A stretch of 51,091 bases of DNA from a virus. The stretch is taken from IMG/VR virus record IMGVR_UViG_3300044908_000033, positions 1-51,091 of that record, one strand, 5' to 3'. The stretch's first letter is position 1. Each line of letters opens with the position of its first letter. Below, in pieces: positions 8,122 to 47,879 of this stretch. The translations under genes and the position numbers were made by a program. Below the pieces are notes generated by a model. That model saw only the letters and a program-made list of their open reading frames with translations. It made no database searches and was not told the DNA's origin.

Positions 8122-9207
8122 ATGCTTGTCTTGTCAATCTTCCCCGGTATCGACATGCTCGGCACCGCATTCTCGCAAGCCGGATTCTGTGTCGTGCGCG
8201 GCGGTGACCCGATTTTCGGCGGCGACGTGCGCACCGAGCATTACCCGCCTGGCGTGTTCGCAGGCGTCATCGGCGGACCGCCGTGCCAGTCGTTTTCGTC
8301 GCTCGCGCATTTGGTCCGGGCCAACGGGCACGAGCCGAAATTCGGCAACCTAATTCCCGAGTTCGAGCGCGTCGTCACTGAGGCCCTGCCGGCATGGTTC
8401 GTGATGGAAAACGTCAGGGCCGCGCCGCTGCCCGTGGTGTCCGGCTATGGCGTGAAGTCGTTCCTGCTTGACAACGCGATGCTGGACAGCGGCGATGGCC
8501 ACGGGCAGGAGCAAACGCGGCTGCGGCGGTTCTCATTTGGCATGCGCGGACGTGCTGATGCCGACGTGCCGGACCTGCGCCGGTGGATCGACCTGGCTAC
8601 GTTTCTGCTGCCGGATGCCGCCGATGATAGCCGCGATACAGTGAGCGGCAGCGGCGGCGTGAATTGGAAAATGAACGAGACGGAGCTGCGGCGCACGTCG
8701 ACGAGAACCGTCACGGCGATGGGACCGGACCATTTGCAGGGCCTACGCGATTCCACCAACGAAACGCGCCGCACGCGCCGCCAAGCCGTCGTGAGCGACC
8801 CGAACACCGTGCCGGTCAAGATCGGCGGCTCGGAAAAGGTGAAGCGGACGCGAAAAGCCGGCATCACAGGTAGCGGTGGCGGCATCAGCGTACAGGGTTT
8901 GCCAGAGCCGGAATACCTGCGCCGGCGGAAAGCGGCTGCAGGCGGCAAGGTTGACCGCACCAATCACGAAGCGGTCAACGGTTCGCATGGGGTTCCGCCA
9001 TCGGCACGGGACAAGGGCAAAGGCCGCTACCGATTCGAGGATGCCTGCCGCTTGCAGGGCCTCTCTGCCGAGTGGTGCGCGGCGTTCGTCGAGCATTCGC
9101 AGATGACCGCCGAGGGGCGCCTGAAAGCTGTTGCCAATGGCGTTCCAATTTTTATGGGCGTGGCGATCGCCCAGGCTGTTAAGGAGGCCATCAATGCCAA
9201 CCTGTAG
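8122..9207 (+). CDS. DNA (cytosine-C5) methyltransferase
   Basis: The 361-residue protein has motif I as FPGIDMLGTAF (7-17), motif IV GGPPCQSFSS with catalytic C55, motif VI ENV at 96-98, and motif VIII QTRLRRF at 130-136. A target-recognition stretch of about 150 residues follows, then motif IX/X (FEDACRLQGLS and a late NGVPIFMGVAIA). It should transfer methyl groups to C5 of cytosine. All key residues are present. No restriction enzyme lies nearby, so protection of phage DNA from host restriction is the likeliest role. The ATG follows the SWIM gene stop directly. Confidence 0.92.
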   Translation: MLVLSIFPGIDMLGTAFSQAGFCVVRGGDPIFGGDVRTEHYPPGVFAGVIGGPPCQSFSSLAHLVRANGHEPKFGNLIPEFERVVTEALPAWFVMENVRAAPLPVVSGYGVKSFLLDNAMLDSGDGHGQEQTRLRRFSFGMRGRADADVPDLRRWIDLATFLLPDAADDSRDTVSGSGGVNWKMNETELRRTSTRTVTAMGPDHLQGLRDSTNETRRTRRQAVVSDPNTVPVKIGGSEKVKRTRKAGITGSGGGISVQGLPEPEYLRRRKAAAGGKVDRTNHEAVNGSHGVPPSARDKGKGRYRFEDACRLQGLSAEWCAAFVEHSQMTAEGRLKAVANGVPIFMGVAIAQAVKEAINANL

Positions 9208-9840: not shown

Positions 9841-10046
9841 GGCACTACACCCGCATCACTCCGCACCGCCAAGGCAAAGGCAACCAGGGCACGCGCCAGC
9901 GCTGGATCGAGTGCGACTGCGACGCTGCCAGGATCGGGGCGCCTCATTGCCCCCGGTGCGAAGGACGCGGGTTTGTGCGGATCGAGCGGATGAAAGCGCC
10001 GTCGATGGTACGGCATCCACTGGACGCGGGAGAAGATGATGGATGA
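9837..10046 (+). CDS. Small zinc-finger protein
   Basis: The 69-residue protein starts at a TTG in a TTGA overlap. CDC near 27-29 and CPRCEGRGF near 38-46 form a DnaJ-like zinc knuckle pair in a basic background. It runs 11 bases into the methylase gene. A nucleic-acid-binding accessory role is plausible but not shown. Confidence 0.6.
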   Translation: MRHYTRITPHRQGKGNQGTRQRWIECDCDAARIGAPHCPRCEGRGFVRIERMKAPSMVRHPLDAGEDDG

Positions 10047-11142
10047 TTGGCATGGCTGCTATGACGACGGCTGGAAGGGCCTCATCGTCGATGAAGCGTT
10101 CGCGCATCCCGCCAAGATCGCGCGCGGCCTTTCCCGTCGTATCTACACGCACGCCTTCGAGCAAGGCTGGCTGCGCGCTGGCGATTGCGTCGTTGACCCG
10201 TTCGGGGGGATTGCTGGGACCGCTTACTACGCTGCCCACATGGGCCTGCGCTGGGTCGGCTGCGAACTGGAGCCGCGCTTTCACGCGCTGGCCGGCGAGA
10301 ACTTCAAGCTGTGGGCACACCTGAGCCGGCACCATGCGGATTACGTGCCGCCGGTCATGGTGTGCGGGGATTCGCGCAAACTTGCGGAACTGGTGGGAGC
10401 GGCGGGGTGCGTGGTGTCGTCACCACCGTTTTCGCAAGCTGGTTGTCAACCGCCAGCGATACGCTCGCATGCTCCTGTTCGGTCGAAATGGATAGAAGAA
10501 CCGGACAGGCCGGACAATTACGGCGACACCCCCGGTCAACTCGGCCGGCTCCGCGAGGGGGACGTGGCGGCGGTGGTGTCGAGTCCGCCATTCGAGAAAG
10601 GCGCGGAAGGCGGTTTGCGCGGCAGCAAGTTCAAAGACCCCGCCGCTTTTGCTGCCGCCATGTCTGCAGCAGATGGCAAAAACGGCCGCCATGCTGCCAG
10701 CCCAGCGGCGCGACTGGCCCAGCTTTGGCGCGATTCCAACCGCGTTTATGGCGACACCAATGGCAACATCGGCAACGACACCGGCGAAACCTTCTGGAGC
10801 GCCGCCCGCGAGATCGTCGAGCAATGCTGGCACGTCCTGCGCCCCGGTGGACACGCGATATGGGTCGTCAAGGACTACGTGAAGGCTGGCCGCATCGTGC
10901 CATTCTGCGCCAACTGGCGGCTGCTGTGCGAGTCTGTCGGCTTCCGCACGCTCTGCGAGCATCGGGCGATGCTGGTGAAAGACCTGGGGGAAGAACACTC
11001 GCTATTCGAGGCCCCGAAGCGGCGGACGAAGGAGCGGAAGTCGTTCTTCAGGCGGCTTGCGGAGAAGAAGGGCAGCCCGCGGATTGATTGGGAGACGGTG
11101 ATTTGCATGGAAAGGCTGGACGGGAGTGAAGACGAGGAGTAG
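10036..11142 (+). CDS. N4/N6-type DNA methylase (double-SPPF family)
   Basis: The 368-residue protein has the SAM-binding motif CVVDPFGGIAGTAYYAA at about 51-67, before two catalytic-type motifs, CVVSSPPFSQAG near 128 and AVVSSPPFEKGAEGG near 181, and a late WHVLRPGGHAIWVVKDYV strand-helix. The motif order (SAM motif first) differs from the commonest DPPY-first layout. The double SPPF and the SFFRRLAEKKGSPRID tail match a phage methylase family I recall. It should methylate an exocyclic amino group of A or C. It ends the rightward operon and is followed by a strong hairpin. Confidence 0.85.
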   Translation: MMDDWHGCYDDGWKGLIVDEAFAHPAKIARGLSRRIYTHAFEQGWLRAGDCVVDPFGGIAGTAYYAAHMGLRWVGCELEPRFHALAGENFKLWAHLSRHHADYVPPVMVCGDSRKLAELVGAAGCVVSSPPFSQAGCQPPAIRSHAPVRSKWIEEPDRPDNYGDTPGQLGRLREGDVAAVVSSPPFEKGAEGGLRGSKFKDPAAFAAAMSAADGKNGRHAASPAARLAQLWRDSNRVYGDTNGNIGNDTGETFWSAAREIVEQCWHVLRPGGHAIWVVKDYVKAGRIVPFCANWRLLCESVGFRTLCEHRAMLVKDLGEEHSLFEAPKRRTKERKSFFRRLAEKKGSPRIDWETVICMERLDGSEDEE

Positions 11143-11150
11143 AAACGGAA

Positions 11151-11178
11151 CAGGCGACTTCTTTGGGGAAGTCGCCTG
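11151..11178. terminator. Perfect 11-bp hairpin at the end of the rightward operon
   Basis: CAGGCGACTTC (11151-11161) pairs perfectly with GAAGTCGCCTG (11168-11178) around a six-base loop. It lies nine bases after the methylase stop. No U tract follows on either strand, so it may be a weak bidirectional terminator or an RNA-end stabiliser between the two converging operons. Confidence 0.6.
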
Positions 11179-11638: not shown

Positions 11639-11881
11639 ATGCGACTCTGGGCCACCTACCACGCTGGAGACGACTCGGTGGTGCTGTGGGAGAAGCGGCC
11701 GACGGTCCACACGGCCCTGGAGTGGCGCGGGGACGGGTGCTGTGGGTGGATCGGCGTCGAGGTGTTCAAGGCGTTGTTTGGGCGCGTGCCGAAGCCTTCA
11801 CGTCCAGAACGAATCACTTCACCTGCGGCCAGCGCTTGTACTGCGGCCCAAACGGACCCAGCAGGCGGAAAGCGTCAGTAG
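11639..11881 (+). CDS. Small hypothetical protein convergent with the late operon
   Basis: The 80-residue protein has GGAGAGGG (11622-11629) in front. Its first 55 residues look like a folded domain (MRLWATYHAGDDSVVLWEKR and Trp/Cys-rich continuation), while the last 25 are low-complexity and lie over the 3' end of the giant late gene (68-base overlap, opposite strand). Function unknown. It could be transcribed from the structured region upstream. Confidence 0.5.
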   Translation: MRLWATYHAGDDSVVLWEKRPTVHTALEWRGDGCCGWIGVEVFKALFGRVPKPSRPERITSPAASACTAAQTDPAGGKRQ

Positions 11882-14800
11882 CGTGCTGCTGCTGGCGTGG
11901 CCGGTCAAAGCCGCCCAGGGTGGCGATCGGCGGGTTGGCCGTGCGAAGGGCAGCGATGGCGTTGTTCAAGATCTGATGCTCATCGGCGTAGGCGCGATCG
12001 GCCAGCCTGTGACCGCGCCAGTCCTCGCCGGTGATGGCGGTGTGGATGGCGGTCGGGTAGGGGCCGAGGGACGGGTGGACGGCGCTCATTGCGATGTCGC
12101 TCACCATCCGCTGGCTGATCTGCGGCCCGGTCTTGCCCTCGCGGAGGCCCTGGATGGCGGCGCCAGCTCCGGTGACGTTGAGGGCGCGGCGGCCGCCGAC
12201 CATGCGGAGCGGGTCGAGATAGATCGTCTCGCCTTCCGGTGACTCGCCGAGTTTGATGGAGCCGACCGGCGTGTTGTCGTCGCCGTCCCACTTGCCCCAC
12301 AAGATCAAATTCACGGCGCTGGTGCCGATCAGGAGGCCAAGGAACTTGCACAGCATCGAGGCCCGCAAGCCGGCCGACTGGAGAGGCGTGAGGTTGCGGA
12401 CGCCGGCCCGCAGGAGCATGGCCTTGTCGATGGCCCGCATGTTGAAGTTGAAGCCGGCGACGGCGAAGGGGCCGATGCCGGTGTCCTTGAGGAACTTCAC
12501 AAGGCGGCTGTAGGTGAGCCGGTTGTAGTTGCCGGCCCCCTTGTTGATCCAGTTGGCCCGGTCGAGCTGCGTATCGGGCACGCGGCCAGCCTTCGCCAGA
12601 CGGGTGTAGGCGTCATCCAGGGTGAGCCGCATGGCCCGCCCGAACGTGTCGAGCAGCTTGCCCACCCAATACGTCGGGTCGGTCTGCGGCGGGATCGGCT
12701 TCGTCAGCAGTCCCCCCATCGTCGAGCCGCCCCAGATGTTGCCTGTCTCATTGCCCTTGTCCTTCATGGCGCCGATGCGGGCCAGCTCCACGATGGCATC
12801 CCGGATTCCCTTGTTGTCGGTCAAGATCTTGTAGAAGTTGGTCACGATGTCGCGGAACCGGACGCCAGGCTGCATCATGGCTGAGAGCAGGTTCGAGCCG
12901 TGGGACATGAACTCGGTGGTTGAGGCCAGGGAGATCTTGGTCAGGGCGCCGGCCACGTAGTCGGAGCCGGGGAACAGCTTCCACGGGTCGTCGATGTCGA
13001 GGACCTCGCGGTATTCGTTGTAGACGTCGGGATGCAGGTAGAGGCTCGTTTCGGATGGTGCGGCTTGCTGGGTGCCACGGGGAGGCTGGACGAACGGCAC
13101 CTCGCGGCCAGGGACGCCACGCAACTCGGGCACCTTGTCGCCGCGGGTTGCCCACTGGCCGAGCCCCTCAGCGACCAGGACGCGGTTCGCCTCGGCACGG
13201 TTGGCGATCGACACGCGCCGGTTCAGGCTGTTCTCGATCATCGCCGACATCCGCAGATCGTAGGCTTCGGCGTCGAGACCGGCTTCTTCCGCAAAAGGAT
13301 CCCTTTTTTGTTTGATGTTCCGCAGGTTGCCGCGCTTCGGTTTGAACACCGTGCCGGCACCGGTAAGGTCGCCAGGTTCCAGCACCTTCGCGTTGAAGGG
13401 CAAGCCGGGAATCTGGGTTATCGAGTCCGGCGGTCGGCCGTTGGCCTTCGTGTAAAGGTCATCCATCAGCCGGCCGAACTCGAGGTAGCGGTTCATAATC
13501 TGCCCGAACACGGGCGTCTTGATGAGGTACTGGAACTCCTTCTCGGTGTTGATGAGCGAGCCCGGCATCCCGAAGACGCTCGTGATCTTCTGGGCCCGGT
13601 TGTCGTAGTCGGCCGCCTTCGCCTTGTCGCCGGCCCGCAGCGCGTCGTTAGCCGCCTTGCGGAGTGCGGCCTTCGCGTAGCGGAAGCGAAGCTCGTAAAG
13701 GGCCGCGGCGGTCTTACGGTCCATGTTGTCGCTGTAGCCTTCGCCCATGATCTTCTTGGCCCAGATCGGAGCCGCTTCCTTGGCGTAGGTGGCCGAGGCT
13801 CCCCACTCGACCATCGAGGTAGCCGCCCTGGGGCTGAGGCGTTCCGTCTTGGGCATCTGGACGCCGCCGAGTTTCTCGGTCATGTCGTAGAACGAGTCCC
13901 ACCAAGACTTGAGCGCTGCCGGGGCATCCCGGAACACACTGATGTCTATGGCTCCTCGTCGGACGATTCGGCCGGGCCTGCCGCCGGGCTGCTGGGGTTG
14001 CTTGAGTCCGGGAGGCTGGGGGCTGACGCTGGGCTGAGGCTGGGGGCTTCGGAAGGGGATGTCGGAAAGGCTTCCGGCCTTCTCTGGTCGGGCGACTCCG
14101 CCGCCGGGTTGGGCAAGTTCGTCGGCTTGCCCCCCGCCGGTTTCCTCCGCCGCATCTTCTTGACCAGCGCTGCCAATTTCGTGCGCAAGCGCCCGAAGGT
14201 CGCCTTGTACCGTGGTGGGCGCGAGGCCAGCCGCTTGTCCAGCTCTGACGACATCGTTCACTGCCTCCGGTTCGAGGGTTTTCATTATGTCGAACGTGAT
14301 CTGTCCGCGGATGCCTTGCCGCAGGTCCGCAACGTAGTGCTGCCGGTCGTATGGCGAACCACCGCTCATCACCGGCGCGTCTTTGCGTGGCGGCGAGGTC
14401 GGAGGCCCAGCCGCAAGCCGAGCCTCCTTGATGACGGCGTTGACGTGGGGTCTGTCGAAGTTGAATTCGTCTTCGAGGATCTTCTTCCAGTAGCCGATGG
14501 CGTGCTCATCACCGCGTGCGATCGTCTTGCGGATGGCGTCCCGCGTGGCGAGCGGGATCGCCTGCTCGGTGTCTCTCAGGAGGTCGCCGGCGGCCGGCTT
14601 TCCACCGGCTCCGGCAGGCTGATTGGCTCCCCCGCCGGCTTGAACGGGGTGAGCGGTTTGGGTTGGCCCTGCAGGTGCGGCGACGGTTTGAAGCCCAGAG
14701 GCTCCCGGACCCGTAACCGGAGTTTGTCGTGCCGGAAGCCCCCCTGCAGTGGCACGTCGAACGGATGGCGGGCCCCCGGTTGTTCGTTCACCCTCGCCTG

Positions 14801-17798
14801 CAGGCGCTGCTTGACCCCCGGCAGTTTCAGGATTTTCTGCTGCAGGCTGTGGATGGCCTTCATGTGGCTCAACAGCACCTCCTGGGGCGAGGTGTCTCTG
14901 GTCTCTGGCATGGTTGAAATCCCCTTGCAGTTGTTCGTACAGCCGCACCGCCTCGTCGATCTTCGCCTCTGTCCACTTCCCTTCACCCACTTCGGCCACC
15001 AGGTCGGCGATCTTCTTCTCAATCTCGTCGTGGAAATCCTGGAAGACCTTGATGGCCCGGTCCGGGTTCTCGGTGATCTCGTCTACCGTGATGGTCCGGT
15101 AGGCCTCCCCGCCGAGGTGCCCCTGCTGCTTCTCGCGGAGGGCCTCGATCCGCTGCAGCTTCTCGGCCTTCCACTCTTCCGCGATCGACCGCTGCTTCTG
15201 CTGCTTCGCCAGGCCGCTTTTCTCCGCAAGCCGGGCCGTCTCGTAGCTGATGCCCATTCGCCGACCGATCTCGCGGAGGGACAGCGGCGGGTCGGCCGAA
15301 CGGAACGCCAGCACCTTCTGCTCGCGTTCGTCCAGCTTTTGCTCCTCGGGGATCGTGGGAGCCTCGGTCAGGTCCTGGGAGCGCACGCCGGGCTCGACCG
15401 CGACCGGCTTACTCGACTTCTGCCGCATCTTCTCCAGGAGCGACTTGCGACCCATGCCGGCGAGCCGATCTTGAGGCATCCCCTTCACCACGGGAGAAAC
15501 ACCCATCCCCGCCGGCGTGTTCGGCAACTCCAGAATCTTCCCCAGCGCCCCACGGGCGCCACGTTCGCCAGCCGCTTCTCGTTGGGCCTTGTGCTGGTGC
15601 ATCCCCTTCTCGGCGGTGCCCAGGTCGGCGCCCAGGCCATAAGAAAAATCGGCTCCCCTGATACGCCGATGCTTGCCGTGCGTGTCAGTGAACTCGATCG
15701 GCGTATCCCGCAAGATGGCCCGCGCGCGCTCCAGCTTTGCCGGGTCGGGGTTCCGGTACACGAACTCGTCTCCGGAGACGTGGTAAGCATCGAGTCCGGC
15801 CGCTTTGAGAGCATGTGCCTTGGCCCGCAGCAGCGCATCGCCGGCGGCGTGCCCATACTTGTCGTTGACCGCCTTCAACCCGTCCGCATCGGACATACCG
15901 ACTGGCCCAGGCTTGGCCTTCTGTATCCGGTCGAAAGCCGCCCGGTTGGGCAGATCGACCAGGGGCGATGTCTCAAGCCGCCGCGTTGCCTCGCGTCCGG
16001 TCTGTTCAATGGTCCAGCCAGGATGTTCCGCCCGGATTTGCTCCCAAAGGTCCTGCGGTGGCCGAGTTGATGACCTGCGCTCGGTCGGAGGGTGAGGAGG
16101 TTGCTGAGGTTGCGCCGCATCCCGCCGCACCTTTTCTTCCTGCAGTTCGGCGTGCAGACGGTCCCGTGCGGCGGTGCTTGCCTCTCTCAAACCTTCAAGT
16201 TGTGCCAGCAAAGAACCGTAAGTCTTGTCACTGACAACAGAACGGCCATTCTTCTGAACCTGTGCCTGCCGTGCGGCAAGTGCATCTGTAACGTCTTTCA
16301 GCTTCCGTTCGGCCTCATTGAAGCCCCAAAGAGCCGTCTGGAGCGGGTGCGGGGCCTCCGGAGCCGGTGCTGGCGCTGGCGCTGCTGCAGGCTGCTCTGG
16401 AGTGGTCCTTGATGGCTCTGGCGGCGCGCCCGCTGGCGGGGCTTGTGGGCGTTCTGGGGCCGCTTCTGCCTTCTCTGGGCCGCGCCGGATGATGTCGGCG
16501 AGCATGTCCATCATGCGCTGCGGGATGCTGCGCGTGTCGTTGGTGATCTGCTGTGCGGCAAAGATTGTCCTGCGCATCGCGGCCTGCGCCTGCTCCTCGG
16601 TGAATCCGGCCGCCTTAAGGTGGTTCGCACCCTGGGCGAAGGCTTCCATCACTGTTCTGGGCACTCGGCCCTGATATGGACGGTTCGGAGGCGGCTGGGC
16701 GCCCGGAGGCGGCTCTGGCGTTGGCCCGGCGCCGCCTGGAGGTGGTTGGCCACCGGGGGGCGCGCCGGGTGTCGGTTCAGGTCCCGGCAATCCCGGCGCT
16801 CGAGCTTCGGGCGCCGGCAATCCGAGCGGCCCTCGCTGAACAGGCGCCGGCCGAGGTGCGGTCGCTTCGTGCCACGCCGAGAATGTGGCCCCGACCATCG
16901 CCTGGATCGCCAGTTGCTTCCAGGCTTCCCCCTTGTCGCCGTTCACGAACTCGCCGATCGTGCCGTAGCCGGTCTGGAGATGGAGCGCGCCCCCCACGAC
17001 GTCGACGGCCGCCTGTTCAAGGGGCATTGCCACGGCGCCTGCCCCGACTCGGCCGAGGCGGGCGCCGATGCCCTGGCCCGGGATGACGGCCCGGGTCACC
17101 TCGCCGAGGCTGCCGAGGACGGCGTTCTCGGCCGCGGCCATGGCGATGGCCGGCGGCAAACCTCGCGGGTCGAGGGGATCCCGGCCAGCAGCGGCGTTGT
17201 CTTGCATCATCCTGGGGACGTAGGTACTCGGAATGAACGGTGTCGCTGCAGCACCCTGGAGCGCTCGGCCGCCGAGCCGGGCCAGCATCCCGCCGCCCCT
17301 ACCGATATTCCCGACGATGCCGGCGCCGGCCGCGTACTCCCCAAGGACCGCCGGCAGACTCGCCGCCGTGTCGAGAACAGCGCCGCCGAAGGTACTTCGC
17401 CGCTGCTGATCCTCGGCGTCCATTTGCTCCTGGGACGCGACGATATGGTAGTCCCACCGCTCGGGACGCCCCTCTTCGATCCGCTGCCGAGCCGCGGCTG
17501 AACGCTCGGCTGTGCCGGCGCTGACAACGCTGGAGAGGAACGGGACCGATCGGCCCATCCAGTAGGCCGCCTCTCTGATCGCGGGTTGCTCTGGGTGGTT
17601 CGCCACGTCCTGCCGTGCGGCAGCCATCCGGCGATGCGGCTCGGTGCGCGCATCGTACTGCCGCCGCATCTCCGCAGGATCGAGGTCGGGGAAAGCCTGG
17701 ATCATTTGCGGCGCAACGGCGTCCCACGTCGGCGGGGCGCCGGCGAGTGGCGCTGCCGGCGGCGGCGCTTCCATCACGTCGGGTTCGTCGTCGTTCAT
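11814..17798 (-). CDS. Giant virion/polyvalent protein with GGDEF and sigma-4-like HTH domains
   Basis: The protein has 1,994 residues from an ATG that overlaps the previous stop (a GTG at 17822 would add eight). The N-terminal 320 residues are Ala/Gly-rich with hydrophobic helices, followed by a Pro-rich linker. Residues about 615-730 form a GGDEF domain: DLPNRAAF, DADGLKAVNDKYGHAAGD (from D637) and SGDEF at 675-679. No RxxD inhibitory site is seen. At about 820-870 an HTH (LSLREIGRRMGISYETAR) with flanking helices resembles sigma-70 region 4. Further linkers lead to a large helical C-terminal domain whose end (IGPFAVAGFNFNMRA, later LLGPFG) recalls large phage polyvalent/ejection proteins. 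As the last late gene it is probably packaged and injected. The enzymatic roles are inferred, not shown. Confidence 0.7.
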   Translation of the reverse strand: MNDDEPDVMEAPPPAAPLAGAPPTWDAVAPQMIQAFPDLDPAEMRRQYDARTEPHRRMAAARQDVANHPEQPAIREAAYWMGRSVPFLSSVVSAGTAERSAAARQRIEEGRPERWDYHIVASQEQMDAEDQQRRSTFGGAVLDTAASLPAVLGEYAAGAGIVGNIGRGGGMLARLGGRALQGAAATPFIPSTYVPRMMQDNAAAGRDPLDPRGLPPAIAMAAAENAVLGSLGEVTRAVIPGQGIGARLGRVGAGAVAMPLEQAAVDVVGGALHLQTGYGTIGEFVNGDKGEAWKQLAIQAMVGATFSAWHEATAPRPAPVQRGPLGLPAPEARAPGLPGPEPTPGAPPGGQPPPGGAGPTPEPPPGAQPPPNRPYQGRVPRTVMEAFAQGANHLKAAGFTEEQAQAAMRRTIFAAQQITNDTRSIPQRMMDMLADIIRRGPEKAEAAPERPQAPPAGAPPEPSRTTPEQPAAAPAPAPAPEAPHPLQTALWGFNEAERKLKDVTDALAARQAQVQKNGRSVVSDKTYGSLLAQLEGLREASTAARDRLHAELQEEKVRRDAAQPQQPPHPPTERRSSTRPPQDLWEQIRAEHPGWTIEQTGREATRRLETSPLVDLPNRAAFDRIQKAKPGPVGMSDADGLKAVNDKYGHAAGDALLRAKAHALKAAGLDAYHVSGDEFVYRNPDPAKLERARAILRDTPIEFTDTHGKHRRIRGADFSYGLGADLGTAEKGMHQHKAQREAAGERGARGALGKILELPNTPAGMGVSPVVKGMPQDRLAGMGRKSLLEKMRQKSSKPVAVEPGVRSQDLTEAPTIPEEQKLDEREQKVLAFRSADPPLSLREIGRRMGISYETARLAEKSGLAKQQKQRSIAEEWKAEKLQRIEALREKQQGHLGGEAYRTITVDEITENPDRAIKVFQDFHDEIEKKIADLVAEVGEGKWTEAKIDEAVRLYEQLQGDFNHARDQRHLAPGGAVEPHEGHPQPAAENPETAGGQAAPAGEGERTTGGPPSVRRATAGGLPARQTPVTGPGASGLQTVAAPAGPTQTAHPVQAGGGANQPAGAGGKPAAGDLLRDTEQAIPLATRDAIRKTIARGDEHAIGYWKKILEDEFNFDRPHVNAVIKEARLAAGPPTSPPRKDAPVMSGGSPYDRQHYVADLRQGIRGQITFDIMKTLEPEAVNDVVRAGQAAGLAPTTVQGDLRALAHEIGSAGQEDAAEETGGGQADELAQPGGGVARPEKAGSLSDIPFRSPQPQPSVSPQPPGLKQPQQPGGRPGRIVRRGAIDISVFRDAPAALKSWWDSFYDMTEKLGGVQMPKTERLSPRAATSMVEWGASATYAKEAAPIWAKKIMGEGYSDNMDRKTAAALYELRFRYAKAALRKAANDALRAGDKAKAADYDNRAQKITSVFGMPGSLINTEKEFQYLIKTPVFGQIMNRYLEFGRLMDDLYTKANGRPPDSITQIPGLPFNAKVLEPGDLTGAGTVFKPKRGNLRNIKQKRDPFAEEAGLDAEAYDLRMSAMIENSLNRRVSIANRAEANRVLVAEGLGQWATRGDKVPELRGVPGREVPFVQPPRGTQQAAPSETSLYLHPDVYNEYREVLDIDDPWKLFPGSDYVAGALTKISLASTTEFMSHGSNLLSAMMQPGVRFRDIVTNFYKILTDNKGIRDAIVELARIGAMKDKGNETGNIWGGSTMGGLLTKPIPPQTDPTYWVGKLLDTFGRAMRLTLDDAYTRLAKAGRVPDTQLDRANWINKGAGNYNRLTYSRLVKFLKDTGIGPFAVAGFNFNMRAIDKAMLLRAGVRNLTPLQSAGLRASMLCKFLGLLIGTSAVNLILWGKWDGDDNTPVGSIKLGESPEGETIYLDPLRMVGGRRALNVTGAGAAIQGLREGKTGPQISQRMVSDIAMSAVHPSLGPYPTAIHTAITGEDWRGHRLADRAYADEHQILNNAIAALRTANPPIATLGGFDRPRQQQHATDAFRLLGPFGPQYKRWPQVK

Positions 17799-19078
17799 GG
17801 GCGGTTGACCCACCAATCCCACGGGTTGGAATACGTGCGCTGTGTCGGCGGCGCGTTGGGTGCCGGCGCAGGCGCTGGAGCGGTCGCCTGCCTCGCCGGG
17901 CCGAGTTGGTTCAGGATGGCATCATAAGCCTGCTGCTGTTCGGAGCGCGTGCTGCCAGGTCCCGCTGGCGGCCCACCCTGAGTTCCCTGAGAGGTGGCCG
18001 GGAATCTCGCATCGGGAGTTCCAGGGGGCGGCGTGGTACCGTTTATGTAATGCTTATCGGCGACTAAATGAGCTATTCGACGCTCAACCGGCGTGCGGTC
18101 TCGGCCCCCAGGACCGTAATTGTCTGAGTGTTGCATCCATTCCTCGGGCGCCGGCGGAGGCGGCGTATGATTCTGCCGCGCGTGCTGGACTTGATCCTGC
18201 CAGTGCTGGTAGGCGCGCGTGGCTTCGAGTGTGGCTTCCCGGACGTAACGCTGATGGTCGGCGAGTTGGCGTTGCTGCTGCCGATCTTCGCTGTTGTCCG
18301 GTCGTTCCTGCCGCGGCTCGATGTGATGCCAGTTGCCGTCTCGGTTCTGGTACATCGACATTTGCGTGCCGTCCGGCATCGTGATCCGCGCCTGTGGCAG
18401 CCGCCCCTGAGCCGTCGTAGCGTCGTGCATCTCCTGCTGCACGCGGAGCCCTTCCATCATCGCCGTCTGGTGCTGGAGCTGCTGGTACTGAAGCTGCATC
18501 GCCAGAGCCGGCAACTCCGACTGTCGCACCACGAGCGGCTGGGCCTGCTGCATGATCCGCTGCCGCATTTGGTCGGCCGTCTGCGTGTCGATGTTGCCGT
18601 TGGCCGCCTCCTCCTCGATCGTGTTGAGGCCCTGCTGGAGTCTGGCGAGGCGAAGGTGTTCTGCCGGGGAAAGCGTGGCCTGGGCGACGGCGTTCTGGGC
18701 GCGTGTAAGGCTCGCGTATTGATCGGGGACCTGGGGCGCCGGCGGCTGCTGCGGAGACTGCGGCGCCAGCACCATCGGCTGCAAGCGCTGGGGCCGCTGT
18801 TGGCCGCCCATGTCGCCGCGCTGGAAGTCGCCGGGCGTGAACCGTGGAGCGGAGGGATCGTACCCCCGCTGCATCATCGCTTCGTCTTCGGGATGATACC
18901 TCGATGAAGACGGTTCATCCGGCGGCGGCGCAACACTGGCGGCTGACGCCTGGGCCGGCGGTGGGCCACCCTGGAGCGGTTCGGTCGGCGCGAGCCCGGT
19001 CGGTGGCGGAGGCTCGACGGCTCCTCGCGTATCGGCCGCTTCACGTCGGCGGCGTTCTTCTTCGGTTTCGTCGGCCAT
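17795..19078 (-). CDS. Gln-rich coiled-coil virion protein (probable internal/ejection protein)
   Basis: The protein has 427 residues. The first 130 are Pro/Gln-rich and disordered; from about 130 to 330 it is helical and Gln/Arg-rich (QMRQRIMQQAQPLVVRQSE, LQYQQLQHQTAMMEGLRV), typical of elongated internal proteins. It ends with a Pro-rich tail and a WDWWVNRP terminus. The ATG at 19078 follows the fibre gene stop by two bases; earlier start codons in the frame lie inside that gene. Its position just before the giant gene fits an ejection protein of a podovirus. No sequence family recognised. Confidence 0.6.
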   Translation of the reverse strand: MADETEEERRRREAADTRGAVEPPPPTGLAPTEPLQGGPPPAQASAASVAPPPDEPSSSRYHPEDEAMMQRGYDPSAPRFTPGDFQRGDMGGQQRPQRLQPMVLAPQSPQQPPAPQVPDQYASLTRAQNAVAQATLSPAEHLRLARLQQGLNTIEEEAANGNIDTQTADQMRQRIMQQAQPLVVRQSELPALAMQLQYQQLQHQTAMMEGLRVQQEMHDATTAQGRLPQARITMPDGTQMSMYQNRDGNWHHIEPRQERPDNSEDRQQQRQLADHQRYVREATLEATRAYQHWQDQVQHARQNHTPPPPAPEEWMQHSDNYGPGGRDRTPVERRIAHLVADKHYINGTTPPPGTPDARFPATSQGTQGGPPAGPGSTRSEQQQAYDAILNQLGPARQATAPAPAPAPNAPPTQRTYSNPWDWWVNRP

Positions 19079-19080
19079 GG

Positions 19081-21663
19081 TCACACCACCAGTTTCCAAA
19101 TCGCGGCGCCGTTGGCGTTCGACACGCACACGTAAAGCTGATTGGTCGCCGTGTCCACCCAGAAGCTACCTACAGCGTACCCGTGCGCCGCATCGTTGGC
19201 GATACCCGGCGCCCCGTTGAAGACGTAGGAGCCCAGCCCGGTCAAGGTGAAGTCGGCCGGTGCAACCTGCTTCAACTCGTTCCGGCCAAAGAGGGCGTTG
19301 ATGATCGACGTGATGATGTCCGTGTGCCGCGTCAGGTTCCGCGCCTGCTCGGGGGTCAATTCCCCCTTGTTCAGCGGCACGCGATTCAGGAACGGCTTCG
19401 AGTGGCCCAGCGGTTCCGTGCCCGGCTGCACCGGAATCGGGATGATGATAGGCGGTGGATAGGGCCGGACATGGACCGCGATCGACGCCGAGGCCGCGAA
19501 GGTCAGCACCATCGGCTTCGAGGCGATCTTTGTTGCTCCCACGAACGGCACGTAGCCAAGCAGCTTGAGTGTCGTCGGGTGAAGGATGCGACCGTAAGCC
19601 CGCGTTGCGGCCTGCTGTGCCTGCCCCTTCGGGAAGATAATGTGCCCGGCTTGCGGCCTCGCCCCGAGTTTGTTGATGATGACCTTTTGCCGGCGGCGGT
19701 AGTACATAGCTGCCGCCACCGCTTGCTCGTAAATGATGAGCGGAATGCCGGCGATCGGAGGGCCGCCCGGCAGCGGATGCGTCTGCACACCAGAGAAGGT
19801 CTGAACCCTGGTGTGGCTTGTGAACCGGGCCAGTGCCGCCTGATAAGGAGAGATGATCCGCAGGGTGCCCACAATGGCCTGATGGCCGGCAACGTAGATG
19901 TTCGTCTTGGCTGGCTTGCGGCGGAAGGCATTGATGGCCTCACGCACTGCCCCGGCACCCTGGACCTCGATTCGCTTCGCCACGATTGCCGGGCCACCAC
20001 CTCGGAGGATGATCGGCTTGTAGCGGTCCCGCTCCAAATATTCTTGCGTGGATGCCGCGCGGTTGGTGACGAGGGGCCTGGCTATCGGCGGTGGCTGGCC
20101 CCCCTGCTTGAGGATCAGTTGGAACAGTGGGTGGTGTGCCCGCCCCGTTGCAGCCTTCGACGCTGCGCCCCCCTTCGGCGAGATATACGCGCCAGCAGAC
20201 GGCACCGTGTTGCAGATGGCCCGGTAGCTGACCGCCATACCCGCCCAGGTGGTCGACGTCGTGGTGCTGAACACCGCTTGCTCGTTCACCAGCGCGTTAA
20301 CGTTGTCGGCCGTGCCGAGGCCCTGCAACGACCCGCCATTGAGGAAGGCAGTCCGGACAAGGAACGGGTTGGCGACCGTGCTCTGTGCCACGTTCGCCGA
20401 TCCCTGCGTGTAAGCCGCCGTCACCAGATTCTCAGGCGCGGAGATCGTCACAACCCCGGTGTCCGGATTGGCGCCTGTGCCCGCATCATGGGCGGTGCCT
20501 ACCACGGGATTCGCTGGCGTAACGCCGGTATACTCGGCGAGGTCCACGGTCGGCAGGACCGAGATGCTTGGCGTGATCGTCACTGTGCAGGCGCCAGCGG
20601 CCGTGTTGGGGAAATAGAACTTGCAGACACGCACCGCGCCGTTCGTCGAGTAGTTGCCGGCCTGGGAGTAGACCTGGCCCAGGCTGTCCGTCACCGTGAC
20701 GGTCGCATTCCCGAACATGCCGATCGTCACTTCGAGCAGGCTCCCAGCCTGCACATTCTGGTTGTAGGTCAGCGCGAAAGGCAGAGCGGTCTGGGCGAAC
20801 TGTCGGGCGTTATGTGACGCCGGCACGAACCCCACGCAGCCCGTGATGCCTTGCGGCGGCATCTCAACAAAGGTATGGACCGGCGGCCGCCGCGAGAAAG
20901 CCGCTGCCGCTTGTGCAGCCGCCTGTCCCTTGGGGGCAACGAAGGTTGTGACCGGCGCCTTCCCGAGCGTCAGGCTGCTTTCGATGGTGACGTGGCCACG
21001 CGAGCGCCACGGGAAGAGGTTGCCCTGCTGGGACTGGCCGACAACGAGCGACTTGGCGACCGGGTTAGCAATGTGCAGAGACGACTCGACGCTAACCGCG
21101 CCCCGCTTGCCCCAGCGCAGCACGGCCGCCTGGATCGCCGCATTCGTCCCGATGAAGCGTGCCGAGGACGGGTAGGCCGCGAGATACTGTTCGGCCCCCT
21201 TGATAATGACAGCTCCGCGTGGCCGGCTGGGGATGGTATCGACCTGGGCAGCGCTGACGCCGAGGAATCGAGCGGTGGACGGCTGGCTGGGCAACAGCGA
21301 CGACCGCAGCACGATTGCCCCGCGTGGCCGTCGGGGAAAGATTGCCGCTTGCTGGGAGACGACCCCAACAGTGGTTGATCGCGCCACGGATGGCGGAGCA
21401 CCGCGGCGAAGGATGATGACTTCCCCGTGCGGTCGCCGCGGATAGATCGCCGCCTGTTGGGAGATGACGCCTACGTTGGTCAGGCGAGCAACTGACTGCG
21501 GAGCACCCCGGACCTTGATGATGGAGACCCCACGCGGACGGCGCGGGTAGATGGCGGCTTGCTGAGAGATGACCTGGACGTTAAGGACTTGCGCAGTCGA
21601 TTTCCGGCCCCCCGAGCGCAGGATGATTGGGCGAAACGGTTGCCTGCGCCCGAGGAGCGACAT
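19081..21663 (-). CDS. Repeat-containing tail fibre / receptor-binding protein
   Basis: The protein has 860 residues. Residues 1-270 are imperfect 35-residue repeats with core VISQQAAIYPRRPRG followed by a VIILRxGxPxSxAR-like half. Residues about 290-490 form an Ig/lectin-like beta domain (ATVTVTDSLGQVYSQAGN, TVTITPS, EYTGV). A second, degenerate repeat block covers about 560-740. The last 50 residues (SYVFNGAPG, VGSFWVDTATNQLYVCV, AAIWKLVV) match the ends of many phage fibres that contact the host. The ATG has GAGG seven bases upstream. It most likely forms the main adhesion fibre. Confidence 0.72.
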   Translation of the reverse strand: MSLLGRRQPFRPIILRSGGRKSTAQVLNVQVISQQAAIYPRRPRGVSIIKVRGAPQSVARLTNVGVISQQAAIYPRRPHGEVIILRRGAPPSVARSTTVGVVSQQAAIFPRRPRGAIVLRSSLLPSQPSTARFLGVSAAQVDTIPSRPRGAVIIKGAEQYLAAYPSSARFIGTNAAIQAAVLRWGKRGAVSVESSLHIANPVAKSLVVGQSQQGNLFPWRSRGHVTIESSLTLGKAPVTTFVAPKGQAAAQAAAAFSRRPPVHTFVEMPPQGITGCVGFVPASHNARQFAQTALPFALTYNQNVQAGSLLEVTIGMFGNATVTVTDSLGQVYSQAGNYSTNGAVRVCKFYFPNTAAGACTVTITPSISVLPTVDLAEYTGVTPANPVVGTAHDAGTGANPDTGVVTISAPENLVTAAYTQGSANVAQSTVANPFLVRTAFLNGGSLQGLGTADNVNALVNEQAVFSTTTSTTWAGMAVSYRAICNTVPSAGAYISPKGGAASKAATGRAHHPLFQLILKQGGQPPPIARPLVTNRAASTQEYLERDRYKPIILRGGGPAIVAKRIEVQGAGAVREAINAFRRKPAKTNIYVAGHQAIVGTLRIISPYQAALARFTSHTRVQTFSGVQTHPLPGGPPIAGIPLIIYEQAVAAAMYYRRRQKVIINKLGARPQAGHIIFPKGQAQQAATRAYGRILHPTTLKLLGYVPFVGATKIASKPMVLTFAASASIAVHVRPYPPPIIIPIPVQPGTEPLGHSKPFLNRVPLNKGELTPEQARNLTRHTDIITSIINALFGRNELKQVAPADFTLTGLGSYVFNGAPGIANDAAHGYAVGSFWVDTATNQLYVCVSNANGAAIWKLVV
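20850..21630 (-). repeat. Seven to eight imperfect ~105-bp coding repeats
   Basis: Each unit encodes about 35 residues beginning (V/A)xSQQAAIxPRRPRG. Units start near residues 31, 66 and 101 of the fibre protein and become more diverged toward residue 270. The period is kept without frame shifts, so the array evolved in-frame and may vary in copy number. Confidence 0.75.
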
Positions 21664-25382: not shown

Positions 25383-25937
25383 ATGTCTGACGGCAATTCT
25401 ACCGTAACGTACCGGAATGTCGAAGGTTTTCCCGGCTACCGCGTTGGCGACGACGGCAGCGTGTGGACTTCGTGGAAGAGACAGGGCAACGGTCGAGGCG
25501 GCACCACGAAGTGGATATTGGGAACCGAATGGCATCGGTTGGCTCCCGGTATCGGCACACGCGGGCATCTTTCCGTGACCTTGTGCCCAGGACGCCACCA
25601 GCGCCTCGTTCATACTCTTGTACTCGAAGCATTCGTAGGTCCTCGCCCAAAAGGCATGCAAGCCAGACATTTCCCGGACAGGAATCCAGCTAACAACGCA
25701 GCGACAAACCTGCTTTGGGGCACTCCGAAGCAAAACTCAGCAGACCGCGTTTTTCACGGGACCGACATCCAGGGAGAAAAGCACGGCATGGCCAAACTGA
25801 CGGAAGCGCTAGTGCGTGACATCCGGCTCCGGTTGGCAAGCGGAGAGATGCAAGTTGCCATCGCGCGAGACGTCGGCGTGCATAAATCCCTGATTTCTTG
25901 CGTGGCGCGCAAGAAGATTTGGCGGCATGTCAGCTAG
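25383..25937 (+). CDS. HNH homing endonuclease (NUMOD4 + HNH + HTH)
   Basis: The protein has 184 residues from the ATG at 25383 with GAGGG eight bases upstream (GTG 25374 and ATG 25377 are alternatives). Order: NUMOD4-like YRNVEGFPGYRVGDDGSVW near 8-27; HNH_3 core near 75-120 (VHTLVLEAFVG, ARHFPDRNPANN, TNLLWGTPKQN); and a C-terminal HTH near 137-180 (LTEALVRDIRLRLASGE, GVHKSLISCV). Such enzymes cleave an allele lacking the insert and spread by repair. It is the only rightward gene within the late operon and overlaps its neighbour's stop by four bases, consistent with a mobile intruder. Confidence 0.9.
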   Translation: MSDGNSTVTYRNVEGFPGYRVGDDGSVWTSWKRQGNGRGGTTKWILGTEWHRLAPGIGTRGHLSVTLCPGRHQRLVHTLVLEAFVGPRPKGMQARHFPDRNPANNAATNLLWGTPKQNSADRVFHGTDIQGEKHGMAKLTEALVRDIRLRLASGEMQVAIARDVGVHKSLISCVARKKIWRHVS

Positions 25938-27535: not shown

Positions 27536-27536
27536 C

Positions 27537-43554: not shown

Positions 43555-43911
43555 TCAGTACCCCGTGAAGGAGTTGTTGTCGTGCCGGCCAAGAGCCTTG
43601 AGCACTCTACGGCGGTGCATCCGGTCCCGCAAGACCGGGTTGCCCATCTTGTCGATCTCGGTGTCCCCGATGCCCAGCTTCTTGAAGTGCTCGCGGGCCT
43701 CGGGGATTTGCTTGGGGTGGTAGCCGAGGGCATCCGAGTGGATCGGCCAACCCGTCAGCGCCGGACCCGCGGGCGCTTGAGATAACAGCAGTTCCTCGAA
43801 GCGCGAAGGAAACGCCGCAAGGTATTCATCTTCGGTGACCTCCACGCCGTCGATGAGGTACTTCCGCTTCGACGGGTCCACTGTGGACAGGGATATGATT
43901 TCGCCGCGCAT
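43555..43911 (-). CDS. Hypothetical protein following portal
   Basis: The 118-residue protein's ATG overlaps the portal stop by one base. An N-terminal beta part (GEIISLSTVDPSKRKYLIDG) is followed by helices (IPEAREHFKKLGIGDTEIDK). It may be a small head protein. Family unknown. Confidence 0.6.
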   Translation of the reverse strand: MRGEIISLSTVDPSKRKYLIDGVEVTEDEYLAAFPSRFEELLLSQAPAGPALTGWPIHSDALGYHPKQIPEAREHFKKLGIGDTEIDKMGNPVLRDRMHRRRVLKALGRHDNNSFTGY

Positions 43912-45827
43912 CAGTGAGCCGCTCCGTTCATTGGCGTCCCGTTCTGCGGCTGCCCCGTCGTCATTCGCTGGGCCGCCGCGTTCGCCTGACCACCAGGCGT
44001 CTTCTCCGAGGTCGATTGCCGCACGTAGTTCCGCGTCGTCTCCGGTGGCTTGCCCGCTGGGTCGGCCGCTGCCCCGCCTCCGCTCGGGTCGGTTGGCTGG
44101 CGGATGGTGATGATCTCGGCCAGGTCCGGCATGTTCAGCAGCTCGCCACGCTTCTTGAGGTAGGCGTTCAGGTCGATGTTGATTCCCTGGGCCTGCAATG
44201 CCTGCATCATGGGGGCCACGATTTGCGTCACTACCTTGTCCAGCTCGGCGGCGCGTGCTTGCGGAGTAGACCGCTGCAGCGAGTAGGGGTCAACGCTCAC
44301 GTCCATGTCTTCCCACGAAATCTGCTGCCGCTGCTGCGGAGTCACCTGCCGCGTCACCGCCGGCAGATCAGGAAGGCCCGGCAACGTGTAGTGCGACTTC
44401 ATCACCTTCTGCGGGTGGTGGTGGTGGAACCAGCACAATGTCTCCAGCACGTCGGAGACGAAGTTCAGTGTGGTTTCTTGCTTCGACTGGATCGTGCCCA
44501 CGGCCGAGGCTTCAAGCATCTTGTCCTGCGTGGCGGTCTTTGATTGTGGAGAGAGGCCACCCGCTGCTTCGATGTTGCCGGCCATGTAGTTGAACCGCTG
44601 CACGGCATCGACGAACATCTGGAAGTTGTTCTGGTCGGGACCGCCGAGGCGATATTCCTTCATCCCCTCGGGGTCGTCGACGCGGATGGCCTCGCCGTCT
44701 GGTGCGTTGACGATCCGGTTGCCGTCCGCGTCTGCGGCGCCCCGGACGTACAGGTTGGTCTTCTGACGCTGGGACTGCTCGATCAGCTTCCGGTAGAGCC
44801 GGTTCACGAAATCATGCAGATCGCCCAGGTCCTGGAGCGGCCCCTTGCCCATGATGTTGCCGGGAACCGGGGCGCCAAGGGCGAGAATGTGGTATGGCCC
44901 GTGGTCCGGGCCGATCCAGTCTTGCGTGCGGAGCGGATCGCCATCCTCGCACACACTGGCCTCGCCGGTCGGCCCCGACAGCAGCGTAACGATCGTCTTG
45001 TGCCGCGGCAGGAAGATTTCCCACAAGTCAACGTGATCCTCGAACTCCTCTTCGTACGACTGGTACACCGTGCGGCCGATGATCGAGATACGGGGGTCGC
45101 CGTGCTGGTTGTACAGCGAGTCCGGGGAGGCGCTCAGGTCCTTCCGGCCCTTGCTGTAGTTCTTGTCCGACATCACCGCCTGGAGAGGCCGGCGAACGCG
45201 GTGCCCGATGAACGTGACCTCTTCCCAATAGCGGGCGTGCAGATCGAAAACGAAATCGTCGAAGTCGATCGACTCGGCGAACGGCTCGCCGGCATCCACG
45301 TCCCACCCCATGAACGCTGACTCGGCGCTGGTGGCGATGCCCACCTTGCAAATCGACATCCCGAAAAGGGCATCGTTCACGCACCGGGCGAACATTTGGT
45401 CGAGGTTGGTCTTCTCGATTTCCTTGTTCACCCACGTCTGCATGGCCGAGATGATCGGCTTGGCCTGCTGGTTGAACGTGGACAGGAGGACGCGAGGGGA
45501 CTTCGGGGCGAGCTGGCGGGCGACGATCTCGACGTAGAGGGACAGGAGGTTGATCGGCTGGGTCCGGTCGGGGCCTTGCTCGGAGTAGCGCTGGCCCACG
45601 AACTTCTCGACGAGGTTGTACCGGATCATCCGGGGGGCACGGAGGGCCAGCCGGGCGCGCTCGATGGCCTTGCACAGTCGGGTTGGGTCGGCGGCTACGT
45701 CAGGTTTGCGGGCCACGGGCTCCGGGGCTTTCTCCACCACTTGCTGCACGGCATTGTACAACAGCGGCCGACCTATGCCCAAGACTCCTCTTGCCGCATC
45801 CGTTCCTCGCGTAGCGCCCGCCGCCAC
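43911..45827 (-). CDS. Portal protein
   Basis: The frame encodes 638 residues from a GTG overlapping terminase by 55 bases; a TTG at 45782 behind GAGGAG is an alternative. Portal hallmarks by pattern are a long N-terminal helix region (LLYNAVQQVVEK, RLALRAPRMIRYNLVEKFVG), the wing (DFDDFVFDLHARYWEEVTFI), the stem/clip region around LHDFVNRLYRKLIEQSQRQK and the helix AAELDKVVTQIVAPMMQALQ, and a disordered C-terminal tail. It lies between terminase and capsid, at typical size. Confidence 0.8.
   Translation of the reverse strand: MAAGATRGTDAARGVLGIGRPLLYNAVQQVVEKAPEPVARKPDVAADPTRLCKAIERARLALRAPRMIRYNLVEKFVGQRYSEQGPDRTQPINLLSLYVEIVARQLAPKSPRVLLSTFNQQAKPIISAMQTWVNKEIEKTNLDQMFARCVNDALFGMSICKVGIATSAESAFMGWDVDAGEPFAESIDFDDFVFDLHARYWEEVTFIGHRVRRPLQAVMSDKNYSKGRKDLSASPDSLYNQHGDPRISIIGRTVYQSYEEEFEDHVDLWEIFLPRHKTIVTLLSGPTGEASVCEDGDPLRTQDWIGPDHGPYHILALGAPVPGNIMGKGPLQDLGDLHDFVNRLYRKLIEQSQRQKTNLYVRGAADADGNRIVNAPDGEAIRVDDPEGMKEYRLGGPDQNNFQMFVDAVQRFNYMAGNIEAAGGLSPQSKTATQDKMLEASAVGTIQSKQETTLNFVSDVLETLCWFHHHHPQKVMKSHYTLPGLPDLPAVTRQVTPQQRQQISWEDMDVSVDPYSLQRSTPQARAAELDKVVTQIVAPMMQALQAQGINIDLNAYLKKRGELLNMPDLAEIITIRQPTDPSGGGAAADPAGKPPETTRNYVRQSTSEKTPGGQANAAAQRMTTGQPQNGTPMNGAAH
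45729..45747. repeat. 19-bp direct repeat, copy 2
   Basis: This is an exact second copy of 35549-35567, here inside the portal-gene N-terminus (reading QQVVEK on the leftward strand). Confidence 0.5.
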
Positions 45828-47644
45828 GCCATCGACCCAAACGGCGCCTCGTCGATCACCACCGCGCCCTCAGACCGGCCCCCCAGCTTGTCGATCATCT
45901 TGAGGCACTGCGCGTCGGCAATCACCATGTCGCCGTGGTTGATTCTAGCCCCCGAGGGGTTGTTCGGACTCGCTATGTTCGCGTGCTCCACGAAACCATC
46001 CGAGCCATACTTGAAGTTCAGGCAGTCGTCCATCGCCTCTTCCGAGCGGTTCACAAACCGCCGCGTCGACAGCGCACCCCGGTAGTCCTCCAGCAAATCC
46101 CGCTCGCTCGCCTTGGTGTTGTTCCAGCCCGGCATGTCCGAGATCGTGGGGTTCAGCCGGAACTCGTCTGTCTTGAAATAGACGTTGCGGTAGCCCAGGG
46201 CGATGATCTGCTTTCCGGCGGTCATGCCCGGGCCCGGCGTCTCCCAGCAGATGAGGGCCGGCATTCCGTTGTGATCGAGGAACAGCCAGCCCACGGCACA
46301 GTAGAAGGTGCCGAAGTCCTTGGGGTCCATGCGGGCGTTGGCATACTCGAAGATCTTCTCGCCGGTGTCCGCGTTCGCCACGCTGATCGTGCTCGGGGTT
46401 GCCCCGCTTCCTGCTGAGACGTCGGCCCCAGCCGCGTACCTGGCCTTCGGCGGCTTCCCGTGGTGGTCCGGGTTGAGCCACAGCTTCACCAGGCCGCCAG
46501 GGCGCCGCACCAGCGCCTTCGGTCGGCCTGTCTCCCGGTCGTACTCCAGGTCGCCTTCCCAGAACGGGGCGCGGCAGTAGGTCTCCTTGAGAACGCGGAT
46601 GGTCAAGGCGTCGAAGAACTGCTCGACTGCCCCCTTCGGGTCGATGTCCAGTTCCATCGAAACGCCGCGGCTAGATCCAATGTCTTTGCATTTCTGATCG
46701 TACCACGGCGAACGGATACCTGGGAAAGGTCCCCCGTTGGGAGTGCCATCAAGGACAAAGGGATAATCCGGATCGAACTTGAAGCTGCGGTCAAGGATTT
46801 CAGGCTGCCCAGTCGTAAGATTCGCACGGTACATCCCCTTCTTCTTGTCTGGGTGCTGAGTCCAGTGCATCACGATCTTCGTCAACTCGGGTGACTGCGT
46901 GAGGTTGTAAAACTCCGTCCCAACCCCCTGATGGGTCCCCGTGAAGAACCGGCAATCCGACGTGCCCGCCGTCCGGTGCCGCACCTGGGTCGCCTGTTTG
47001 ATGAGCGGGAATTCGTCGATGTTGATCAGCGACGTTCGGCCACCCACGCCCGCCTCTCCCGTGCTGGCCTCGCCGCCTTGCACCGAGCCGCTCCGGTCGT
47101 AGCCGATGTACATTTTCTCTTCGGTGACTTCCCCTCGCAGCCACACCGGAAGGTACTGGTGCATGAATCGCAGCTTCCAGAACAGGCTATTAGGGGACTT
47201 GGAATCTACCGCATCGGCCGACCGAGAAATGTTTAAGGTTTGCTCCATTTCCTGAAAGATGCAGAGCCAATCCTGCACGATGAGCAAAAGCCAACTCGCC
47301 CCCATCTCGCGGGACTTCTCGATCACCGCCGACCGCCCATGCTCGTAGCACCACAGAACCCCACGCCGCCCCGTCGTCTCTGGCCGGTCCAGCAAAGCCG
47401 CCTCCTGGAAGTCCCAGGTGATGAACGGCCCCACACGCTTCTTCGGCGGCTTCTTCGGATTGAACTGCCACACGAACGAGTTGATGTAGAAGAGGATGTC
47501 GTTCCGGCACATCTCGATGATGCCCTTGCGGAACATGGCGCTTCGCAGGCACTTCTCCAGCAGGCCGGCCCGGTAGATGCGGTTGTCCTTGGGATCGCGG
47601 GGAACGTCGAGGTGGTCTTTACCGGGCGAGAGCATTTTCGGCAT
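45773..47644 (-). CDS. terL: Terminase large subunit (packaging ATPase-nuclease)
   Basis: The protein has 623 residues. Adenine-binding-type WDFQEAALLD is near 77-86, a Walker A-like KSREMGAS at 110-117, and Walker B LINIDEF with D210/E211. The RNase H-like nuclease half has acidic residues D408 (GADVSAG), E468 (ICWETPG) and D577 (VIADAQC) in the right order. It translocates and cuts DNA at the portal. I chose the ATG at 47644 as the first in the frame not deep in the upstream gene; ATG 47635 is equally possible and neither has a clear ribosome-binding site. Confidence 0.9.
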   Translation of the reverse strand: MPKMLSPGKDHLDVPRDPKDNRIYRAGLLEKCLRSAMFRKGIIEMCRNDILFYINSFVWQFNPKKPPKKRVGPFITWDFQEAALLDRPETTGRRGVLWCYEHGRSAVIEKSREMGASWLLLIVQDWLCIFQEMEQTLNISRSADAVDSKSPNSLFWKLRFMHQYLPVWLRGEVTEEKMYIGYDRSGSVQGGEASTGEAGVGGRTSLINIDEFPLIKQATQVRHRTAGTSDCRFFTGTHQGVGTEFYNLTQSPELTKIVMHWTQHPDKKKGMYRANLTTGQPEILDRSFKFDPDYPFVLDGTPNGGPFPGIRSPWYDQKCKDIGSSRGVSMELDIDPKGAVEQFFDALTIRVLKETYCRAPFWEGDLEYDRETGRPKALVRRPGGLVKLWLNPDHHGKPPKARYAAGADVSAGSGATPSTISVANADTGEKIFEYANARMDPKDFGTFYCAVGWLFLDHNGMPALICWETPGPGMTAGKQIIALGYRNVYFKTDEFRLNPTISDMPGWNNTKASERDLLEDYRGALSTRRFVNRSEEAMDDCLNFKYGSDGFVEHANIASPNNPSGARINHGDMVIADAQCLKMIDKLGGRSEGAVVIDEAPFGSMAWRRALREERMRQEESWA

Positions 47645-47879
47645 CCACAAGATCGCTGCCGCGGCGCCATGTGTTGTTGTGGATCGCCGTCGACAGTGCT
47701 GCGGAAATTCGCCTGTCTCGATCCATGAGCTGGTCGATCTCCTCCACCAAAACGGCAACATCGTGGTTGAAGATTTCCGGCTCCGCTCGTTGCGAGCGTC
47801 CCACTCCCAGCGTGTGGTAGCGGCAATTCTTCTCAATCGCACGTCGCACATGCTCAGGGTATTGTTCCAGCGGCTTCAT
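47619..47879 (-). CDS. Hypothetical protein upstream of terminase
   Basis: The 86-residue helical, charged protein (EQYPEHVRRAIEKNCRYHT, HDVAVLVEEIDQLMDRDRR) overlaps the previous gene by four bases and terminase by about 26. It could be a small terminase-related factor by position, but no DNA-binding motif is visible. Confidence 0.55.
   Translation of the reverse strand: MKPLEQYPEHVRRAIEKNCRYHTLGVGRSQRAEPEIFNHDVAVLVEEIDQLMDRDRRISAALSTAIHNNTWRRGSDLVDAENALAR

Follow-up and report, generated by a model that had tools for sequence, protein, structure and literature searches.

A giant protein encoded on a 51,091-base viral record (hereafter, as a whole, the window) carries a domain that almost certainly has the GGDEF fold, and 46 copies of this domain, including that of the window, were found in open reading frames (ORFs) of more than 600 aa, mostly 1,300-6,000 aa, in viral contigs and prophages. 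Comparison of the sequences indicates that the domain moves between otherwise unrelated giant phage proteins while its catalytic residues are retained. The novelty implied by the first-pass annotation did not hold, since GGDEF domains in phage polyvalent proteins have already been published (Iyer et al., 2017; PMC5512222), and the window protein is a well-supported member of this known kind, not a new system. The present analysis adds how large the family is, how it separates from the cellular cyclases sampled, that its active site is conserved and that it behaves as a cassette.

The gene for the giant protein is located at 11814..17822 on the minus strand. Its longest ORF has 2,002 codons from a GTG, and the likely start is an ATG at 17798, which shares the sequence ATGA with the stop codon of the preceding gene and gives a protein of 1,994 aa; residues are numbered here in the 2,002-codon frame, from which 8 is subtracted for numbering from the ATG. 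The G+C contents at the three codon positions (0.70/0.51/0.78) fit a coding frame. A plus-strand frame at 13032-16070 (1,012 aa) was rejected as a real gene, having no Pfam match and a weaker position-specific G+C pattern. Both this frame and a second long plus-strand frame at 18844-20817 (657 aa) face real minus-strand genes and are probably by-products of high G+C.

From N- to C-terminus, the protein consists of a predicted long helical hairpin (residues 496-570; 16113..16337, minus strand), a proline-rich linker, the GGDEF domain and a sigma-70 region 4-type helix-turn-helix (residues 828-873; 15204..15341, minus strand), followed by an alanine/glycine/proline-rich stretch and a C-terminal third with one hydrophobic segment. 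The hairpin comes from a single-sequence AlphaFold2 model of residues 495-1041 (local pLDDT mostly 79-90 in the hairpin), which has a low overall pLDDT of 62 and was relied on for the helices of the hairpin and the helix-turn-helix only. The helix-turn-helix, which also matches Pfam PF04545 above the cut-off (E = 1.4e-7), starts approximately 60 residues past the GGDEF domain, and it occurs in the window protein alone among 11 proteins scanned together. The most hydrophobic stretch in a Kyte-Doolittle scan (residues 1823-1841; 12300..12356, minus strand) is a possible membrane segment. No match was obtained when relatives of the C-terminal 728 residues were sought by pattern in viral contigs, and the Pfam scan of the window protein found no classical LPD domain. 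Polyvalent proteins combine several unrelated domains of enzymatic or binding type, and the window protein joins a GGDEF and a Sigma70_r4 domain in this way.

The first-pass annotation had placed the GGDEF domain at 15620-15960. This location was correct, but the extent was not: an alignment with ten relatives lengthens the domain to approximately residues 595-766 (15525..16040, minus strand). The characteristic motifs lie on the minus strand between 15620 and 15960 and follow the canonical order originally described: DLPNRAAF (residues 623-630), DADGLKAVNDKYGHAAGD (residues 645-662; 15837..15890), which holds D645, K650, N653 and D662, and SGDEF (residues 683-687; 15762..15776), which holds the second metal ligand, D685. 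Pfam GGDEF (PF00990) matches residues 634-695 above its cut-off (E = 3.6e-6; 27.3 bits against 23.8), and the stricter NCBIfam model TIGR00254 matches below its own (24.1 against 37.4). A phmmer search of PDB sequences put diguanylate cyclases on top, with Dcsbis as the best match (E = 1.2e-5). When the alignment with ten relatives was used as input, AlphaFold2 modelled the domain with a pLDDT of 95.3 and a pTM of 0.86. Fold search of the PDB gave 82 matches with E ≤ 0.001 (best E = 4e-9), of which the best 50 are all GGDEF-domain proteins and nearly all diguanylate cyclases, although TM-scores to solved cyclases are mostly only 0.5-0.65. Among viral models, the best match was A0A516M277, an unnamed model covering 1,143 residues of a large protein (TM 0.83), followed by the GGDEF protein of Bordetella phage CN1. 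Structure prediction and comparison with solved structures thus strongly bear out the GGDEF/palm fold, and a chance resemblance is ruled out by Pfam, phmmer, the fold search and the 46 conserved copies.

On the basis of motif alignment, we take the metal ligands D645 and D685 to be the counterparts of PleD D327 and E370, the guanine contacts N653 and D662 to be those of N335 and D344, and K650 and K745 to be those of K332 and K442. The K745/R748/R754/R757 motif (KAQREAAGERGAR; 15552..15590, minus strand), which is conserved in relatives, corresponds to K442/R446 of PleD, which bind phosphate. The window copy keeps the metal ligands, the guanine contacts, K650 and the phosphate-binding lysine K745. 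Three readings of the first-pass annotation are confirmed: both metal-binding aspartates are present, the signature deviates in its first residue (S in place of G), and no RxxD precedes SGDEF at the position of the inhibitory site (I-site). This site is optional and not needed for cyclase activity, and diguanylate cyclases work as dimers. The SGDEF spelling alone does not settle activity: SGDEF is active in Pectobacterium ECA3270 and an A-to-S mutant of VCA0965 is inactive (PMC3974145), while VF_A0057, which also has SGDEF, is probably active (PMC11575326). An active cyclase is plausible on these precedents despite the VCA0965 mutant, and we consider it fairly likely that the module is catalytically active.

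To gather relatives, viral contigs were scanned twice and genome contigs once; seven further GGDEF copies are in small frames. Across the 46 large-ORF copies, D645, N653, G684, D685 and E686 are each invariant (46/46), K745 is kept in 45 and D662 in 39, with N or T in the other seven. The domain that the first-pass annotation had described in one phage is therefore present in others, with no loss of either metal ligand. As a check on search bias, we looked at the 34 copies without YHVSGDE, one of the search patterns, and every one reads GDE[FIL]; the six without the other pattern all keep D..L...ND. A plasmid-borne origin was considered and rejected; the plasmid matches were three weak ones, to annotated cyclase, EAL or GGDEF proteins. 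On a contig of a Microbacteriaceae-binned MAG, we observed a 157-aa protein (L063:6235-6705) that hardly differs from its counterpart in Pseudomonas phage Psa21-HRN; this is likely to be phage contamination of the MAG. One giant ORF (L033:5873-16213) contains two tandem GGDEF domains together with LPD5, LPD1, ART-PolyVal and LPD38, and this tandem could possibly form a built-in cyclase dimer.

In a maximum-likelihood tree, which was a quick search with 40 bacterial cyclases picked by similarity to the query, the sampled viral copies fall on one side of a branch from these 40 cyclases (SH-aLRT 99). The embedded copies branch apart from the stand-alone proteins of the Yuavirus type, and the window groups with its closest relative, L002, which is approximately 55% identical over the core. 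The L002 domain has lost LPNR, reads KGDEF, has N for D662 and matches Pfam below threshold. Because several positions have been lost in L002, catalytic activity may be decaying on the branch that it shares with the window. In the same protein (L002:7862-15643), a 2H phosphoesterase is found just ahead of this degraded-looking GGDEF domain and an ART domain after it.

The state of L002, with its KGDEF and without D662, is one of several observations compatible with a catalytically silent domain that would bind GTP or c-di-GMP and serve as a sensor, a sponge or a scaffold, as degenerate GGDEF domains do, for example by timing the processing of the giant protein or by soaking up host signal. The window's own signature is SGDEF and not GGDEF, and published work describes the loss of activity in the A-to-S mutant of VCA0965 as well as numerous degenerate GGDEF domains that serve as receptors (PMC3974145). 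However, neither metal ligand varies in any of the 46 copies, those spelled GGDEF included, there is no I-site, which many receptors use, and the pattern of conservation fits catalysis and not a receptor, all of which makes a silent domain a rather improbable alternative to an active cyclase. It is less probable still that the domain is an active cyclase with a different product (cGAMP or another cyclic or linear dinucleotide) serving as a decoy or agonist against CBASS- or Panoptes-type defence. Such a product would suit the separation of the viral clade from the sampled cellular cyclases, the N or T found in 7 of 46 copies at D662 (PleD D344), a position tied to base recognition, the 2H phosphoesterase and ART domains of relatives, which are aimed at nucleotide or protein signals, and the existence of GGDEF-like decoy cyclases in hosts (Panoptes). 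In the window, though, both guanine contacts, N653 and D662, are canonical, and nothing within it points to a specific defence.

We compared 51 genes of the window with a set of fetched loci of the relatives and found that the GGDEF stretch alone is common to many of them; the helicase (matched in L046) and the gene at 25934-27751 (matched in L050) gave the only other matches. Since almost nothing but the GGDEF domain is common to them, it is a swapped cassette that is kept for function. That it is swapped between unrelated proteins and yet retains its catalytic residues is our main argument for selection on catalysis. The relatives' proteins carry LPD38, LPD22, LPD1, LPD5, ART-PolyVal, InPase, RadC and 2H domains, which are the companion domains of polyvalent proteins. 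InPase (PF18823) lies near GGDEF in 11 giant ORFs (L022, L024, L025, L027, L029, L031, L034, L039, L043, L055 and L059), mostly with gaps of 17-460 aa, and is absent from the window protein. That InPase might clear the pyrophosphate which the cyclase releases was considered as the reason for this pairing and rejected, as InPase is very common in giant phage proteins; in a control, only 2 of 77 InPase-bearing large ORFs carried GGDEF, so the pairing is no specific sign of such a role.

The genetic context of the giant gene agrees with the first-pass description of it as the last gene of the structural operon. It is coupled through ATGA to the gene directly upstream (17795..19129, minus strand), which encodes a Q/A/P-rich protein of 444 codons; beyond this lies an 860-aa repeat-containing protein (19081..21663, minus strand) that weakly suggests a tail fibre or appendage. 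Upstream on the same strand are the terminase large subunit (TerL; 45773..47851, PHROG E = 2e-11 and tblastn) and a weakly matched SU10-like portal protein of podovirus type (43911..45827; PHROG E = 0.002; Pfam SU10_portal E = 1.4e-4, below cut-off), which together are consistent with a podovirus. TerL gave tblastn matches to isolate phages of only about 20-28% identity, and the portal gave no tblastn match in 50,697 phage records. The genes downstream of the giant gene are convergent and include a RecE-like nuclease, a helicase and DNA methyltransferases, the last with matches at 8122-9207 and 10036-11142 on the plus strand, near the nuclease and helicase. Between the convergent operons, a consensus scan picked out a terminator-like 11-bp stem (11151..11178, minus strand), in a scan whose number of stems was not above that in shuffled sequences.

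Upstream of the giant genes of several sampled relatives are genes for a podoviral tail protein (L006 and L010), a DNA ejection protein (L025), an internal virion protein (L016) and a head-closure protein (L040). Given these neighbours, the structural-operon position of the window gene and the polyvalent companion domains, packaging followed by ejection is plausible for the window protein; packaging itself we judge probable, and action of the GGDEF module in the host cytoplasm somewhat less so, though still favoured. The same evidence counts against a protein that is made during infection but left unpackaged, with a GGDEF domain acting late or in lysogeny in the manner of the small stand-alone proteins of Yuavirus and Vojvodinavirus: the giant gene ends the structural operon with ATGA coupling, the relatives' giant genes come after ejection, internal-virion and tail genes, and the companion domains are polyvalent. 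We regard this alternative as quite unlikely, even though phages possess a separate branch of stand-alone GGDEF proteins of 157-298 aa and lysogens of the GGDEF-bearing Bordetella phage LK3 overproduce biofilm, which is a correlation only (PMC8471281).

Among known systems, the closest in design is the giant prophage protein of Acetonema longum (WP_004096050.1), in which a GGDEF domain was reported by Iyer et al. (2017; PMC5512222); these authors described such domains in polyvalent proteins as “not very widespread” and suggested that they interfere with host signals. Like the window protein, it is a giant multidomain phage protein, presumed to be injected, that includes a GGDEF module and has a similar proposed role, but it carries SNF2 ATPase, methylase, MPTase and ART domains where the window protein has, besides GGDEF, the sigma-region-4 helix-turn-helix. 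Small GGDEF proteins with AGDEF, SGDEF or GGDEF signatures have been annotated in Yuavirus and Vojvodinavirus (PMC8471281). The stand-alone proteins YuA gp44, Psa21-HRN QVJ13049 and those of CN1 and LK3 share the viral GGDEF clade with the window. QVJ13049 has the same catalytic residues as the window domain but, unlike it, is a single-domain gene product of about 157 aa encoded away from structural genes. The bacterial enzymes PleD, Dcsbis, DgcZ and YfiN resemble the window domain in fold, metal ligands, guanine contacts and phosphate-binding lysine, whereas the window protein differs from bacterial diguanylate cyclases in that no sensor domain was found, the I-site is missing, the signature is SGDEF and the clade is separate from those sampled. 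The host defence protein Panoptes OptS/mCpol, in which the GGDEF motif is almost absent and whose product is 2',3'-c-di-AMP or 3',2'-cGAMP (PMC12657218), is comparable by description, through a related palm fold and the use of cyclic dinucleotides in phage-host conflict.

Our preferred reading, to which we give an even chance as a whole, is that the window encodes a giant polyvalent protein that would be carried inside a podovirus-like phage's capsid and ejected along with the DNA, with a GGDEF nucleotide cyclase as one module. Inside the cell, this module would join two GTP molecules to form cyclic di-GMP or a closely related cyclic dinucleotide, free of feedback inhibition because the I-site is absent, and would raise the signal level early in infection; the neighbouring helix-turn-helix and the other regions would be separate modules. 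The likeliest gain would be a changed host physiology (motility, envelope) or a jammed nucleotide-based defence. More tentatively, the cyclases could be a dedicated virus-only clade that serves as an interchangeable cassette of ejected proteins; many unrelated phages would then bring a finished second-messenger synthase into the cell along with their DNA, acting before phage gene expression, with a product possibly tuned against nucleotide-based immunity.

Should the domain prove to be both active and ejected, phages would be adjusting a host second messenger from the very start of infection, a form of control that has so far only been proposed (Iyer et al., 2017; PMC5512222). With 46 copies that share a near-invariant active site and are swapped between unrelated proteins, this proposal becomes testable on one small domain.
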